Source of the DNA: Gammaproteobacteria bacterium
GTDB taxonomy: Bacteria > Pseudomonadota > Gammaproteobacteria > SZUA-140
Direction: 5' to 3'
NCBI GenBank assembly: GCA_015491865.1
Contig: WFVD01000001.1
Coordinates: 1-33,605, forward strand
Length of the DNA stretch: 33,605 nt
Shown here in pieces: positions 17,443 to 26,385 of the stretch (position 1 is the stretch's first letter; every line of letters begins with the position of its first letter). Under the pieces are notes generated by a model. It was not told the DNA's origin. It worked only from the letters and a program-made list of their open reading frames with translations, and did not search any database. The position numbers and the translations under genes were made by a program.

Positions 17443-18003
17443 ATGGTCAGCCTTGAGACACCGTTATGTGATTTTGGTAAGCCAGCGATCGATTTTGATC
17501 TTCCCGGTGTCGATGGCAGGCGCTGGACGCTGGCCGATTGTCGTGGAAAAAATGGGCTGCTGGTGATGTTTATCTGCAATCACTGCCCCTATGTGATCGC
17601 CATTCGCGAGCGAATTGTGCGCGAAGCGCGAGCGCTACACCCTAAGGGAGTCAACTTTGTGGCGATTATGTCGAATGACCCGTCGGATTATCCCGAAGAC
17701 TCATTTGAAAACATGCAGCGGGTAGCGGCGGAGTTTGATTTCCCTTTTCCCTACTTATTAGATGAGACCCAGGCGGTGGCGAGGGCTTATGGGGCGATCT
17801 GCACTCCCGATTTCTTCGGCTATAATAGTCGCCTGGAGCTACAGTATCGTGGCAGGCTCGATGCCAGTCGTAAAGAGGCAGCGCCGGAGGGTGCGAGACG
17901 TGAGCTGTTCGAAGCGATGACACAGGTGGCCGAGAGCGGGATAGGGCCGCGAGAACAGATTCCGAGCATGGGGTGCTCAATCAAGTGGGTTTCCGCTGGA
18001 TAA
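17443..18003 (+). CDS. Thioredoxin-like/AhpC-TSA family thiol protein
   Basis: A 186-residue cytoplasmic protein of the thioredoxin-fold family often annotated as thioredoxin family protein or AhpC/TSA. The active site is CNHCPYV at residues 45-51, a CxxC motif placed after the strand GLLVMFI; a third cysteine occurs before the cis-proline loop (GAICTPDFF), and a fourth near the C-terminus (PSMGCSIKW). The last two are typical of this subfamily. There is no signal peptide, so it probably acts in cytoplasmic redox or peroxide handling. AAGGA lies upstream of the ATG. The gene is divergent from metK and separated by 450 bases from the next gene. Confidence 0.85.
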   Translation: MVSLETPLCDFGKPAIDFDLPGVDGRRWTLADCRGKNGLLVMFICNHCPYVIAIRERIVREARALHPKGVNFVAIMSNDPSDYPEDSFENMQRVAAEFDFPFPYLLDETQAVARAYGAICTPDFFGYNSRLELQYRGRLDASRKEAAPEGARRELFEAMTQVAESGIGPREQIPSMGCSIKWVSAG

Positions 18004-18456
18004 ATGTGGTTCCTGGTCGGTTGTTGCAATTCACTCAGGTGAGGGCGGGGTAAGGCAAAAGCGGCCGAAGAAAGCGTAGCTTACTGAGAAACATGGTTGT
18101 TTTGAGACAGGTTTTCACGCCGAAGCGTGCCGACTGAGCCGAATGGCAACATCCTGCTAACGAGTCAATCGCACCGCTAAAGGGGATCAGTCATAAAAGA
18201 AGGTGCACGAGTCGTCTCTGTTTGATTTTATCTTGTTGTTATTTCAGATGTTTTTCTTTCTTAAGTGATTAGCTATTGCCGAACAGGCGCGGGTAGGCGA
18301 AAATAGCGGGTTCTTGTTGCAGGCTATATCCGTTGGAATTAAGTGATTGAGCCGCTTGGTATTTGACTTTGCTTCTCACGGGGAGAGTCGTTTCATCTGT
18401 TCTGGAACGATCCGCAGAGAGTTAAGAAACTAGAACCATAAATTTTAAGGACTGGG
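18004..18456 (+). other. 453-base gene-free region before the carbon-metabolism block
   Basis: No coding region, tRNA or clear terminator was found. It contains a perfect 5-bp CACGC/GCGTG stem with a CGAA loop (18117-18130), a possible 14-codon reading frame at 18093-18137 with no ribosome site, and a 10-bp direct repeat TTAAGTGATT at 18261-18270 and 18339-18348. The sequence just before the next ATG (TAAATTTTAAGGA) repeats the one before the thioredoxin-like gene. It is long enough for a regulated promoter or a small RNA controlling the downstream genes. Confidence 0.5.
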
Positions 18457-19293
18457 ATGCGTCACCCTCCGGTAGTGTTAGGTATTGTGGGTAAACCAGT
18501 GGCTGAAAGAGAGGCGCTGGCGGCAGGCGTTGCCCGGCTGCTGGGCGGTGTGCAGCGCGTAGCCCGGGTATCGACAGGAGATTATCGGAAATTTAACCGT
18601 GCGGATGGGGTTAAAGAGGCGGTGACAGCAGCGCACCCGACGGGGCTCTGGCTGGATATTGTGGCGCAGCATTTAGGATTGTTAAAGCGTGGTGAGGCGG
18701 TGTTACGCCCCACCTACAATCGACAGCGCGATGCCTTTGAACCCGCCGCCTATGTTGAACCGCGCCCGTTTGTGATTGTTGATGGTGAACTCGGTTTTTT
18801 TACGCAAGGGTTGCGTAATAGTCTGGATATAAGGGTTTTTTACAGCTCTGATGAGTCTGTTGCGGAGTGGCAAGGGTCGCTCGCTAGCGACGCAACGGCC
18901 TATGTGGAGTCGCAGCGGAAATGGGCCGATCTGGTGGTTGAGTCACTGCCAGCGGGTAGCGCAAACGGGAAAAAGGGGGTGGGCCTGACATTGCGCCCGA
19001 CACTACCGTACCTCGAACTGGAGGCGTTAATCTCGGCAGTGAACGAGCCGACCGCCATGCGGCTGGAGTTGGCGCGAGACATGGGCTTGCCGGTGGATCG
19101 GGTGGTGATTGATGGGGCGATTAGCCGTCAGGCGGCGGCCTCTTTTAAGAAGCGCCTAGTTGCGGAAATAGCTGCCGATTATCGGCATGGTGCAGCTGAA
19201 TCAGCCCTCAATGAGGCGAAAAATGGCGCTGAGTCACTTGTATTGACTCAGCTGCTGGTGACACTGTTCGTGCTGAAAATCGCGAGCGGTTAG
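18457..19293 (+). CDS. Phosphoribulokinase-like protein lacking P-loop and lid (probable pseudoenzyme)
   Basis: A 278-residue protein whose fold signature is that of the phosphoribulokinase/uridine kinase family: LDIVAQHLGLLKRGEAVLRPTYNRQRDAFEPAAYVEPRPFVIVDGELGF aligns with the family's EQHL...PVYNH...EPR.FVIVEG region, and QRKWADLVV with the conserved QR.WAD. The family P-loop (G..GDS..GKTT) reads GIVGKPVAEREA at residues 9-20, so the glycine, lysine and threonines that hold ATP are gone. The DDYHRYDR motif is GDYRKFNR (41-48). The basic lid segment that normally precedes EAFI.PQR is missing about 20 residues. The frame is intact, AAGGA lies seven bases before the ATG, and it directly precedes tkt. 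Catalysis seems unlikely; a binding or regulatory role is inferred. Confidence 0.75.
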   Translation: MRHPPVVLGIVGKPVAEREALAAGVARLLGGVQRVARVSTGDYRKFNRADGVKEAVTAAHPTGLWLDIVAQHLGLLKRGEAVLRPTYNRQRDAFEPAAYVEPRPFVIVDGELGFFTQGLRNSLDIRVFYSSDESVAEWQGSLASDATAYVESQRKWADLVVESLPAGSANGKKGVGLTLRPTLPYLELEALISAVNEPTAMRLELARDMGLPVDRVVIDGAISRQAAASFKKRLVAEIAADYRHGAAESALNEAKNGAESLVLTQLLVTLFVLKIASG

Positions 19294-19372: not shown

Positions 19373-21361
19373 ATGCCATCTCGTAGAGATCTAGCAAATG
19401 CGATACGTGCTCTGAGCATGGACGCAGTACAAAAAGCCAAATCTGGCCACCCCGGAGCACCGATGGGGATGGCGGATATCGCTGAAGTTCTGTGGAACGA
19501 CCACATGAAATATAATCCAACCAATGCCAAATGGGCTGATCGTGATCGTTTTGTGCTTTCAAACGGCCACGGCTCTATGCTGATCTACTCGCTACTTCAT
19601 CTGTCAGGTTTTGATCTAAGCATGGAAGATATCAAGAACTTCCGTCAGCTACACGCCAGGACAGCAGGTCACCCTGAGTACGGTTATGCCGACGGCATCG
19701 AAACCACTACTGGTCCTCTTGGTCAGGGCATCACCAATGCCGTTGGTATGGCGATTGCCGAGCGCACCCTGGCGGCACAGTTTAACAAGCCAGGTCACGA
19801 CATCGTTGATCACCACACCTATGTATTTATGGGTGACGGTTGCTTGATGGAAGGGCTTTCTCATGAAGCTTGTGCGATGGCGGGTACTTTGGGCTTGGGC
19901 AAGCTGATCGCATTCTGGGATGACAATGACATCTCTATCGATGGGCATATCAGTGACTGGATGGAGAAAGATGTGCCGGGGCGCTTCAACTCTTACGACT
20001 GGCATGTGATTCCAGATGTGGATGGCCATGACGCCGACGCCATCAGTGCTGCTATTGCTGAAGCAAAATCGGTCACTGATAAGCCGACGTTGATCTGTAC
20101 GCGCACCATCATCGGTTTTGGTTCGCCAAATCTTAAGGGAACGCATGACTGCCACGGCGCACCACTGGGTGAAGAGGAAATCGCCGCAACACGCAAGGAG
20201 CTGGGCTGGACGGCTGCTCCTTTTGAAATCCCTGCAGAGATCTATGCCGGCTGGGACCATAAAGCGCAGGGTGCTGCGGATGAAGCTTCGTGGGACGCTA
20301 AATTTGAAGCCTATCAGGCGGCCTTTCCGGCGGAAGCAGCTGAGTTTATTCGCCGTATGTCTGGTGAGCTGCCAGCAAACTTTACCGTTGAGATGGATAA
20401 ATTCATCGCTAAGACACAGGAGGAGATGCCCAACATCGCGTCTCGGAAAGCCTCTCAGAATGCGATTGAAGCGATGGGGCCACTGCTGCCAGAGATGTTC
20501 GGCGGCTCTGCTGACCTGACAGGTTCTAACCTGACCAACTGGTCTGGCACCGTCAAAGTAACGCCTGAAAACGCTAATGGTAACTATATTTCATGGGGTG
20601 TGCGTGAGTTTGGTATGGCGCACATGATGAACGGTATGGTGCTGCATGGTGGTTTCAAGGTTTATGGTGCTACCTTCTTTATGTTCATGGAGTTCATGCG
20701 CAATGCACTGCGTATGTCTGCGCTGATGAAGATCGGCACCATCTATGTTTACACCCATGACTCAATTGGTCTGGGTGAAGATGGTCCGACCCATCAGCCG
20801 GTGGAACAGTTGGCAACCATGCGTGTGATTCCGGGTTTCCAGACATGGCGTGCTTGTGATGCAGTTGAGTCAGCCGTTTCGTGGAAAGTCGCGATGTTAC
20901 GTGGCGATGCACCGACTGCGCTGGTTTTCTCTCGTCAAGCCCTGATACCGATGGCACGTACAGCAGATCAGGTCGCCAACATTGAGAAGGGTGGTTACGT
21001 GTTGAAAGATTGTGAAGGCGCACCCGATGTGATCTTTATCGCCACCGGCTCAGAGGTAGGGCTGGCGGTTGAGGCGGCTGAAGTGATGGATGCCAACGTG
21101 CGCGTTGTCTCGATGCCATCTACCTGTGCATTTGATACACAGGATCAGGCCTACAGAGATTCGGTGCTGATACCTGGCGTGAAACGTGTTGCGATCGAAG
21201 CGGGCGTAGATCAGTCGTGGTACAAATACGTGGGTCTTGATGGCGCAACTGTCTGCATGAAATCTTTTGGTGAATCTGCCCCTGCCGGCGACCTCTTTAA
21301 AGAGTTCGGTTTCACGGTAGAGAACGTGGTCGCGACTGCAAACGCAGTGCTGGGTAAATAA
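19373..21361 (+). CDS. tkt: Transketolase
   Basis: A 662-residue transketolase that moves two-carbon units between sugar phosphates using thiamine diphosphate, in the Calvin and pentose phosphate cycles. The thiamine-binding GDG...N motif is visible ([32 protein letters not shown], about 154-185), as are the substrate-binding [16 protein letters not shown] near 25-40 and [21 protein letters not shown] around 460-480. The length is typical (E. coli 663). AGGAG lies eight bases before the ATG. It is the first conventional enzyme of the tkt-gap-pgk-pyk-fba block and follows the kinase-like gene by 79 bases. Confidence 0.96.
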
Positions 21362-21443: not shown

Positions 21444-22445
<1,002 letters not shown>

Positions 22446-22605: not shown

Positions 22606-23781
22606 ATGTCAGTAATCAAAATGACCGACCTGGATCTGGCAGGTAAGCGTGTGTTAATTCGTCAGGATCTGAATGTGCCGCTGAAAGAGGGCGCAGTTTC
22701 GGATGACACCCGCATTCGCGCATCATTACCGACCATTCAGAAAGCGCTGGAAGGTGGCGCGAAGGTGATGATTATGTCGCATCTTGGGCGGCCTACCGAA
22801 GGCGAGTGCTCCGATGAGTATTCGTTGGCGCCAGTCGCTGCTTACATGGGTGAGCTACTGGGGCGCGATGTTAAGCTGGTTAAAGCGTACCTGAATGGTG
22901 TCGAGCTGGCTGATGGCGAAGTGGCGATTCTGGAAAATGTACGTTTCAATGCGGGTGAAAAGAAAAATGATGATGCGCTTGCTAAACAGTACGCAGCACT
23001 ATGTGATGTGTTTGTAATGGATGCGTTTGGTACTGCGCATCGCGCACAGGCATCAACGCATGGTGTCTCTAAATTTGCACCGACAGCCTGTGCTGGCCCA
23101 CTGCTGGCTGGTGAGCTGGAAGCGCTGGGCAAAGCGCTAGACAACCCGGCACGACCAATGGTTGCAATCGTCGGAGGCTCGAAGGTTTCAACCAAACTGA
23201 CCGTGCTGGAGTCGCTTTCCAGAATTGTCGATCAACTGATTGTCGGCGGCGGGATCGCAAACACGTTTATTGCTGCAGCAGGATACAATGTTGGCAAATC
23301 TCTGTATGAAGCGGATCTGGTTGAGACGGCAAAAAAACTGACGGCCGATGCACAGGCGCGTGGTGGTGATATCCCGGTTCCTGCTGATGTTGTATGTGCG
23401 AAAGAGTTTTCTGAAAGCGCGGCTGCAGAGCTGAAAAATGCATCAGATGTTGCTGATGATGACATGATCTTTGATATTGGCCCTGAAAGCGCAAAAGAGC
23501 TGGCCGAAATTTTGAAGAATGCAGGTACCATCGTCTGGAACGGCCCTGTTGGTGTGTTTGAGTTTGATCAGTTTGGAGAAGGAACCAGAGCGATTGCAAA
23601 TGCAATTGCCGAGAGCCCTGCATTTTCAATTGCAGGCGGTGGCGATACACTGGCTGCTGTTTCGAAGTATGGGATTGCCGATAAGGTGTCGTATATTTCA
23701 ACCGGTGGTGGCGCATTTCTCGAATTCCTGGAGGGCAAAAAACTGCCTGCTGTTGAGATTCTGGAAGAGCGCGCTAAGTAA
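22606..23781 (+). CDS. pgk: Phosphoglycerate kinase
   Basis: A 391-residue phosphoglycerate kinase, transferring phosphate between 1,3-bisphosphoglycerate and ADP or the reverse. N-terminal [11 protein letters not shown] (residues 19-29), [10 protein letters not shown] (about 58-67), the hinge [15 protein letters not shown] and the C-terminal nucleotide site ([14 protein letters not shown] and [20 protein letters not shown]) are all present; the usual DFNVP is DLNVP here, so the substrate-loop asparagine is kept and phenylalanine is leucine. AGGAG lies upstream of the ATG. It sits between gap and pyk in the carbon block. Confidence 0.96.
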
Positions 23782-23845: not shown

Positions 23846-25270
23846 TTGCGCAGAACTAAAATTGTCGCAACTCTAGGGCCGGCAACTGACGACCTTAAAG
23901 TTTTGGAATCACTGGTCGTGGCTGGTGTTGATGTTGTGCGTCTGAATTTTTCTCACGGATCTTTTGAAGAGCAAAAGTTTCGTGCAGACAATATTAGAAT
24001 CCTGGCAGAAAAACACGGCAGAGCGATTGGCGTGCTGGTTGACCTGCAGGGGCCGAAGATCCGTACCTGTAAATTCAAGGAAGGCAAAGTCAACCTGGTT
24101 GAGGGTGATACCTTTATTCTTGATGCAGCGCTCGGTGATGAGGATGGTACAAATGAGCGAGTGGGGCTGACCTATAAACAGTTGCCGAACGATGTCTCCC
24201 CGGGAAATACCTTGCTGCTTGATGATGGCAGAATGGTGCTGGAGGTAACAGCAGTGAAAGGTGCCGAAGTTCATACTAAGGTGATGCACACCGGCCCATT
24301 GTCTAATAATAAAGGGATAAATCTGCAAGGTGGTGGTCTTTCTGCGCCAGCTTTAACGGAAAAAGATAAAATTGACATCGTTTCTGCGGCGAAAATCGAT
24401 GCTGATTTTGTTGCGGTCTCGTTTCCGCGTACAGCAGCGGATGTTAATGAGTGTCGGCGTCTACTTCATGAGGCGGGTGGTTCAGCGGCCATCGTTTCCA
24501 AGATAGAGCGCGCTGAGGCGCTGGAAGTGATCGATGAAATCATCGAAGCATCGGAGGTGATCATGGTTGCCCGCGGTGATCTCGGCGTTGAAGTGGGGGA
24601 TGCTGAGTTGCCCGCGATCCAGAAAGATCTCATCAAGCGGGCTCGTGCGATGGATCGGGTCGTGATCACAGCCACACAGATGATGGAATCGATGATTGAA
24701 AACCCAATCCCGACACGCGCCGAAGTGTTCGATGTTGCGAATGCTGTGCTTGATGGCACGGATGCGGTGATGTTATCCGGCGAAACGGCTGCGGGGAAAT
24801 ATCCTGCAAAGGTCGTAGAAGCGATGGGGCGTATCTGCGAAGAAGCAGAAAAACAACGGACCACTCGCGTTTCTGATCATCGTGTTGACCTCACCTTTGA
24901 ACGCTCAGACGAGGCCATTGCCATGGCGACAATGTATACCGCCAATCACCTCGATGTGGACGGTATTGCAGCATTGACAGAGTCGGGTTCTACGCCATTA
25001 TGGATGTCACGCATTAGCTCCGGCCTGCCAATTTATGCACTGACACGTAGTCATAAAACTAAAAGACGCATGACGATGTATCGTGGTGTCTATCCGATGA
25101 GTATCAATATTGATGAGGTTAAGCAGTATCAGCTTAGCGCGCATGCACAGAAAGTGTTGCTGGAGCGTGGCGTGGTAAAGAGTGGTGATCTGATTATTAT
25201 CACAAAAGGCGACAAGGTCGGTGTTGATGGTGGTACTAATTCAATGAAGATTGTTCGTATCGGGGGTTGA
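23846..25270 (+). CDS. pyk: Pyruvate kinase
   Basis: A 474-residue pyruvate kinase converting phosphoenolpyruvate and ADP to pyruvate and ATP. The start is a TTG with AGGAG eight bases upstream; the resulting N-terminus MRRTKIVATLGP matches the family exactly, so the TTG is well supported. Other motifs are RLNFSHGS (residues 33-40), the phosphate-transfer lysine in VSKIERAEAL (about 217-226), MVARGDLGVE and ITATQMMESMI. Its place inside an otherwise reversible sugar-phosphate block shows that the block also serves lower glycolysis. The rare start codon may keep expression below its neighbours. Confidence 0.95.
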   Translation: MRRTKIVATLGPATDDLKVLESLVVAGVDVVRLNFSHGSFEEQKFRADNIRILAEKHGRAIGVLVDLQGPKIRTCKFKEGKVNLVEGDTFILDAALGDEDGTNERVGLTYKQLPNDVSPGNTLLLDDGRMVLEVTAVKGAEVHTKVMHTGPLSNNKGINLQGGGLSAPALTEKDKIDIVSAAKIDADFVAVSFPRTAADVNECRRLLHEAGGSAAIVSKIERAEALEVIDEIIEASEVIMVARGDLGVEVGDAELPAIQKDLIKRARAMDRVVITATQMMESMIENPIPTRAEVFDVANAVLDGTDAVMLSGETAAGKYPAKVVEAMGRICEEAEKQRTTRVSDHRVDLTFERSDEAIAMATMYTANHLDVDGIAALTESGSTPLWMSRISSGLPIYALTRSHKTKRRMTMYRGVYPMSINIDEVKQYQLSAHAQKVLLERGVVKSGDLIIITKGDKVGVDGGTNSMKIVRIGG

Positions 25271-25347: not shown

Positions 25348-26385
25348 ATGGCTTTGATTTCACTACGCCAGTTACTGGATCATGCAGCAGAAAATGGTTA
25401 CGGTATGCCTGCATTCAATGTCAATAATATGGAACAGGTTCACGCAATCATGCAGGCAGCTGATGCAGTGGACTCGCCCGTTATCATGCAGGGTTCTGCA
25501 GGCGCTCGCGCTTATGCAGGTGAGCCATTCCTGCGTCATCTGATCTCTGCTGCTGTTGAACAGTACCCACACATTCCGGTGGTCATGCATCAGGATCACG
25601 GCTCCGAGCCGGCAGTCTGCCTGCGCTCTATCCAGTCCGGTTTTTCATCGGTCATGATGGATGGTTCATTAGAAGCCGATATGAAAACACCCTCTTCTTT
25701 TGAATATAACGTTAACGTTACCAGAACAGTTGTTGATATGGCGCACGCTGGTGGTGTCTCTGTTGAAGGTGAGCTGGGCTGTCTGGGGTCACTTGAGACT
25801 GGTGAAATGGGTGAGGAAGATGGACATGGTGCAGAAGGGAAGTTAGATCTTGATATGCTGCTGACAGACCCGCAGGAAGCGAAAGATTTCGTTGAGCAGA
25901 CTAATGTTGATGCACTGGCGATCGCTATTGGCACCTCTCATGGCGCTTATAAATTCACCAGCAAGCCTACCGGTGAAGTGCTGCGAATTGATCGCATCAA
26001 AGAGATCCATCAGGTGATCCCGAATACCCATCTGGTGATGCACGGCTCTTCTTCTGTGCCTCAGGAGTGGTTAGAGATTATCAACAACTACGGCGGCGAC
26101 ATGGGGCAGACCTATGGTGTACCGGTTGAAGAGATCGTTGAAGGCATCAAACATGGTGTGCGCAAGGTTAACATCGATACAGATCTGCGCATGGCATCGA
26201 CTGGTGCGGTACGCAAGTTCCTTGCGGAGAACCCTGCGAACTTTGATCCGCGTAAATTCCTTAAGGAGTCTACGGCGGCGATGTCTGCTATTTGTAAGGC
26301 GCGTTTCGAAGCGTTTGGTTGCGCTGGTCAGGCTGCAAAGATTACACCGAAATCGCTAGAAAAGATGATCGATTTTTATAAATAA
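25348..26385 (+). CDS. fba: Fructose-bisphosphate aldolase, class II (Calvin-cycle subtype)
   Basis: A 345-residue zinc-dependent aldolase that joins or splits fructose 1,6-bisphosphate; related enzymes also make sedoheptulose 1,7-bisphosphate. Metal ligands lie in VMHQDHG (His81 and His84) and further on in GTSHGAYKF and [11 protein letters not shown]. The length and the segment [24 protein letters not shown] fit the class IIB 'Calvin cycle subtype', although members also occur in heterotrophs. AGGAG lies before the ATG. It is the last gene of the block and is followed by a strong terminator, convergent with galU. Confidence 0.95.

Follow-up and report, generated by a model that had tools for sequence, protein, structure and literature searches.

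One point at which CO2 fixation is controlled is the supply of RuBP. For phosphoribulokinase (PRK), regulation by protein complexes is, to our knowledge, well documented only where CP12 takes part. The roles of the PRK catalytic Asp, dyad His, Ru5P-binding His and lid Lys/Arg have been described, and an Arg and a Tyr (Arg49 in RsPRK, Tyr98 in MhPRK) hold the Ru5P phosphate (PMC9978339, PMC5241800). Bacterial-type PRK is octameric, and the C-terminal domain through which it pairs differs from its counterpart in dimeric PRKs (PMC5241800, PMC9978339). Our search of the open literature, incomplete in coverage, turned up no account of a PRK without a P-loop.

The window analyzed here, a stretch of 33,605 nucleotides of gammaproteobacterial DNA, carries a gene for such a protein (Table 1). 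A sequence-only reading of the window had taken its frame to be clean, preceded by a good ribosome site and beyond repair of the P-loop by a frameshift, and these points hold: the 278-aa ORF is open, AAGGA lies 5 bases upstream of its ATG, and a longer N-terminus is impossible because a TAA stands in frame upstream. A P-loop hidden by a longer N-terminus or a frameshift is ruled out by this stop and by five concordant genomes; common to five independent genomes, the loss is neither chance nor an assembly error. The family core is kept, as the same reading had stated: the protein matches PRK07429 (NF005655) over its full length (145.4 bits, E 2e-42), and the closest solved structures, the cyanobacterial 9qkn (E 5e-45) and 9qko (E 7e-43), match it far better than classical plant-type PRKs do. 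This significant similarity to models and structures makes it a member by descent of the PRK07429/phosphoribulokinase family; it stays below the curated NCBI cut-off for PRK07429 (236 bits), and hence outside the subfamily as defined, and exceeds the Pfam PRK cut-off (28 bits versus 22). AlphaFold2, given four sequences, returned a prediction with a pLDDT of 34, too low to be usable, and a search of viral contigs found no relatives.

Table 1. Features of the prk-like gene and its surroundings in the window.
Feature	Position	Strand	Basis
AhpC-TSA/redoxin family gene, constant upstream neighbour	17443..18003	+	comparison of relatives
Leader block	18266..18319	+	shared by all 8 genus members compared
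Ribosome-binding site AAGGA	18447..18451	+	sequence
P-loop-less phosphoribulokinase-like gene, PRK07429 lineage, 278 aa	18457..19293	+	homology
Former Walker A, now G-K-P-V-A-E-R-E-A (residues 12-20)	18490..18516	+	alignment
GDYR where DDYH expected: catalytic Asp to Gly, Ru5P-binding His to Arg	18577..18588	+	alignment
YNR where YNH expected: dyad His lost, Tyr and Asn kept	18715..18723	+	alignment
DG where EG expected: Walker B-side Glu to Asp, 5/5 copies	18781..18786	+	alignment
Lid deletion site, 19-20 residues (RD..KRGH segment absent)	18865..18876	+	alignment
QRKWAD conserved segment	18913..18930	+	alignment
C-terminal conserved segment LELARDMGLPVDRVVI	19063..19110	+	alignment
tkt, transketolase of a foreign type compared with sibling species	19373..21361	+	sequence comparison
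gap, glyceraldehyde-3-phosphate dehydrogenase	21444..22445	+	gene-order comparison
pgk, phosphoglycerate kinase	22606..23781	+	gene-order comparison
pyk, pyruvate kinase	23846..25270	+	gene-order comparison
fba, class II fructose-bisphosphate aldolase	25348..26385	+	sequence reading

The active site was aligned with those of six canonical members. Where these have the Walker A motif GDSAAGKTT, the protein reads GKPVAEREA at the same length, with no indel (GIVGDSAAGKTT in relatives versus GIVGKPVAEREA here), and GKPV[AT]ER is kept in all five species with an intact gene. The first Asp of DDYH, which is the catalytic one, is Gly in the window copy and in one homologue (G006) and persists in three others (G004, G007 and G009); the lid lacks 19 residues plus one Arg, its Lys/Arg included. 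These three changes had been seen in the window beforehand, and the alignment lengthens the list: Arg replaces the Ru5P-binding His of DDYH in every copy, the dyad His of YNH is absent from all five (Arg, Gly or Ser instead), and the Glu of the EGL motif is Asp. Walker A, an Asp-His dyad and the lid Lys/Arg are all wanting in the window protein, and because the P-loop, both His and the lid are missing, its sequence is incompatible with the known mechanism of phosphotransfer. What is retained comprises QRKWAD, LRPTLP and the C-terminal RDMGLPVDR block, 47 of the 104 residues invariant among canonical members (those kept in all five copies; about half are gone), and Arg48 and Tyr87, the equivalents of RsPRK Arg49 and MhPRK Tyr98, both invariant in the five copies. 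To judge by its sequence, the prk-like protein is not a new family but a catalytically dead form of a known one.

The intact P-loop-less gene was found in five species of one genus (the window genome G000, G004, G006, G007 and G009; 67-90% identity), and it precedes tkt in every one. The homologue records include Chromatiales bacterium HyVt-459 and two gammaproteobacterial MAGs, and from the isolate names we read the carriers as vent-associated. In a sample of 369 genomes from the class and 398 from the phylum, the hits read included no further P-loop-less copy, and as far as seen the gene is restricted to one genus within what was searched. Conservation of the lost P-loop and of the tkt neighbourhood, a question that the sequence-only reading had raised for different genera, holds across five species but within that genus.

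In close pairs the dN/dS of the prk-like gene (Nei-Gojobori) is 0.25-0.32, with a significant deficit of amino-acid changes (Fisher p 2e-5 to 1e-10), which argues that the protein is under selection; between the two clades it is 0.13-0.15, synonymous sites there being near saturation. The constraint spans a synonymous divergence of about 1.5, and of 1000 neutral simulations at each level of divergence, 31 still had an open frame at 0.15 substitutions per site and 2 at 0.3. All these ratios lie well under 1, and the contrary outcome named in the sequence-only reading, a lone decayed copy with dN/dS near 1, was not seen: the window copy and its four homologues are intact, at 0.13-0.32, and it is the sibling remnants described below that look like decaying pseudogenes. 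The constraint is about three to ten times looser than on the neighbouring genes (dN/dS about 0.03-0.13 for redoxin and about 0.02 for tkt). Within the gene, synonymous divergence is lowest over codons 1-16 (0.22), and the start of tkt is likewise low (0.26), so conservation of the former P-loop is partly at the nucleotide level, and part of it may serve translation initiation. Selection on the gene acts at the protein level and is loose.

Upstream of the prk-like gene lie a divergent metK and the redoxin gene; tkt begins 79 bases downstream and is followed on the same strand by gap, pgk, pyk and fba, an order preserved among relatives. The leader block, gctattgccgaacaggcgc.ggtaggcgaaaatagc, is kept even where the prk-like gene has decayed, and is probably an operator/promoter-type control region of the tkt operon; in the 5' region an Rfam search gave no structural RNA match, and a promoter scan gave nothing on the + strand.

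Three of the eight informative species have the prk-like gene deleted or eroded, the redoxin-tkt gap measuring 561-695 bases in G001, G002 and G005 versus 1242-1369 in carriers. The remnant in G005 reads RHPPPVVLAIMGKPV, then a stop, with ...VVLAIMGKPV legible, and its DNA match scores 55 (maximum of 300 shuffles, 40); G001 retains the C-terminal end of the gene (score 37 versus 29 in shuffles). No significant remnant was found in the gap of G002, and no trace in more distant genera of the family. Since the G005 remnant already carries GKPV, the loss of the P-loop predates the split of the species of the genus, and the gene itself was dispensed with later, in one branch; its loss from three sibling species implies a role that is dispensable in some relatives. 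Comparison of redoxin, cbbP and rbcL did not settle the species tree.

The tkt of the window clade is 86-91% identical to that of distant families (f75, f77, f53, f128 and f109) and 66-68% identical to that of the sibling species, whose flanking metK and gap are 93-100% alike; a foreign tkt between such flanks suggests that recombination replaced the body of the gene. Joint horizontal acquisition of the prk-like gene and tkt in one cassette was ruled out: remnants of the prk-like gene persist in siblings whose tkt is native, and in other families no prk adjoins the foreign-type tkt. Foreign-type tkt is present in every genome with an intact prk-like gene, and native tkt in the three siblings without it; this pattern would fit a partner of Tkt, and in effect represents one evolutionary event.

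The genome does encode, as suspected earlier, a true phosphoribulokinase at another locus: a canonical CbbP lies at G000:C8 (NF011997, 510 bits; cut-off 362). RuBisCO is present in the genome too, and CbbP was found in G003, G004, G005 and G009 as well. An intact PRK07429 lies between metK and tkt in two unrelated autotrophs (G344 and G131) and before tkt in G224, where it appears able to serve as the only PRK, since RuBisCO is present there and no other PRK is; in two members of the same phylum, G610 and G656, it adjoins a tkt of another type. Both PRK types occur together in G344, G131, G055 and G610. In G610 (L157) the bacterial-type cbbP, the PRK07429-type prk and tkt are adjacent, and at seven further loci (L062, L063, L064, L159, L161, L162 and L163) PRK-like kinases form part of open frames about 680-724 aa long and are apparently fused to another domain. 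The G055 homologue (L008:1486-2403), located between metK and tkt, keeps the P-loop (ADACAGKS), the lid, the catalytic Asp and the Glu, and has lost both His (DDYR, YNR); by these residues it may be an additional PRK, partly disabled, in a genome that also encodes CbbP. In the tree it groups with the P-loop-less clade (support 82/69, long branches meeting); it may be kin to that clade and may represent an intermediate on the way to the P-loop-less form. That catalysis could be lost is most simply put down to redundancy with CbbP.

We hypothesize, at about even odds, that a second, redundant PRK has become a retained pseudoenzyme and sugar-phosphate-responsive partner of the operon enzymes. An ancestral PRK07429-type second PRK would have occupied the position beside tkt that this type has in other autotrophs, and with CbbP supplying RuBP this copy would have been free to lose ATP binding and catalysis. 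The protein would still fold, would dimerize through its C-terminal domain like plant-type and archaeal PRKs, and would keep the phosphate-binding corner (the Arg49 and Tyr98 equivalents); co-expressed with Tkt, Gap and Pgk, it may act as their non-catalytic, sugar-phosphate-responsive partner, in a logic resembling that of PRK in the GAPDH-CP12-PRK complex, without CP12. The conserved pseudoenzyme of the sequence-only reading survives in this form: catalytic residues are lost in all orthologues and these losses are fixed in all five copies, the frames are open and precede tkt, dN/dS is below 1, and CbbP and RuBisCO are present. Retained function is in turn challenged by the confinement to one genus in the genomes searched, by the three siblings without the gene, by a constraint weak next to that on redoxin and tkt, by the nucleotide-level share in the conservation of the former P-loop, by the loss of about half of the family's invariant residues, and by the lack of CP12 (PF02672), which had no match in the 11 genomes searched, S. 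elongatus serving as positive control. A CP12-dependent PRK complex is ruled out by this absence. A bolder version, in which the protein is a non-catalytic sugar-phosphate-binding regulator or scaffold physically coupling Tkt and its neighbours in a CP12-less chemoautotroph, we hold to be doubtful.

The same sibling losses, together with a dN/dS several times that of the neighbours and a catalytic Asp missing in only some copies, would be expected of a relic in slow decay, with no dedicated function, whose frame is kept open by polarity on tkt and the cost of misfolding until deletion. Such a relic accounts for the losses but not for the restraint on missense changes, which polarity cannot hold back, nor does it sit easily with a constraint of such duration and a frame intact in all five copies; we consider it possible but rather unlikely. 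Less probable still is a dominant regulatory subunit that hetero-oligomerizes with CbbP and tunes RuBP supply, control of a true PRK having been suggested in the sequence-only reading: CbbP is at hand in five genomes, yet direct co-assembly with an octameric enzyme that pairs through a different C-terminal domain is unlikely, and siblings with CbbP live without the prk-like gene. A still-active kinase with an unorthodox nucleotide site could claim the near-invariance of GKPVAER (save Ala/Thr at one position) and the Asp kept in three of the five copies, but it would have to dispense with Walker A, the lid Lys/Arg, the dyad His and the Ru5P-binding His at once, and is very improbable.

The retained pseudoenzyme would be a PRK without catalysis, yet kept by selection inside a sugar-phosphate operon. 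Because the active ancestral type, the dead form and gene-less species coexist, they offer a natural series from redundant enzyme through pseudoenzyme to loss. Among known systems, the GAPDH-CP12-PRK complex of cyanobacteria and plants is a possible model, by analogy, for a PRK acting via partners, and differs in its dependence on CP12, absent from these genomes. Bacterial-type CbbP (NF011997), present elsewhere in the window genome, bears only a superfamily likeness to the window protein, being octameric in R. sphaeroides, with another C-terminal domain and an intact active site. The PRK07429-type PRK (NF005655; 9qkn, 9qko) is of the same lineage over its whole length, sharing QRKWAD, LRPTLP and RDMGxPVDR, and in G344, G131, G224 and G055 it occupies the same place before tkt; by contrast, the window protein is without Walker A, lid, dyad His and Ru5P-binding His, and scores 145 versus 236 bits. 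The G055 homologue (L008) shares with the window protein both the metK-tkt position and the same two His losses, and differs in that its Walker A (ADACAGKS) and lid persist, as do the catalytic Asp and the Glu.
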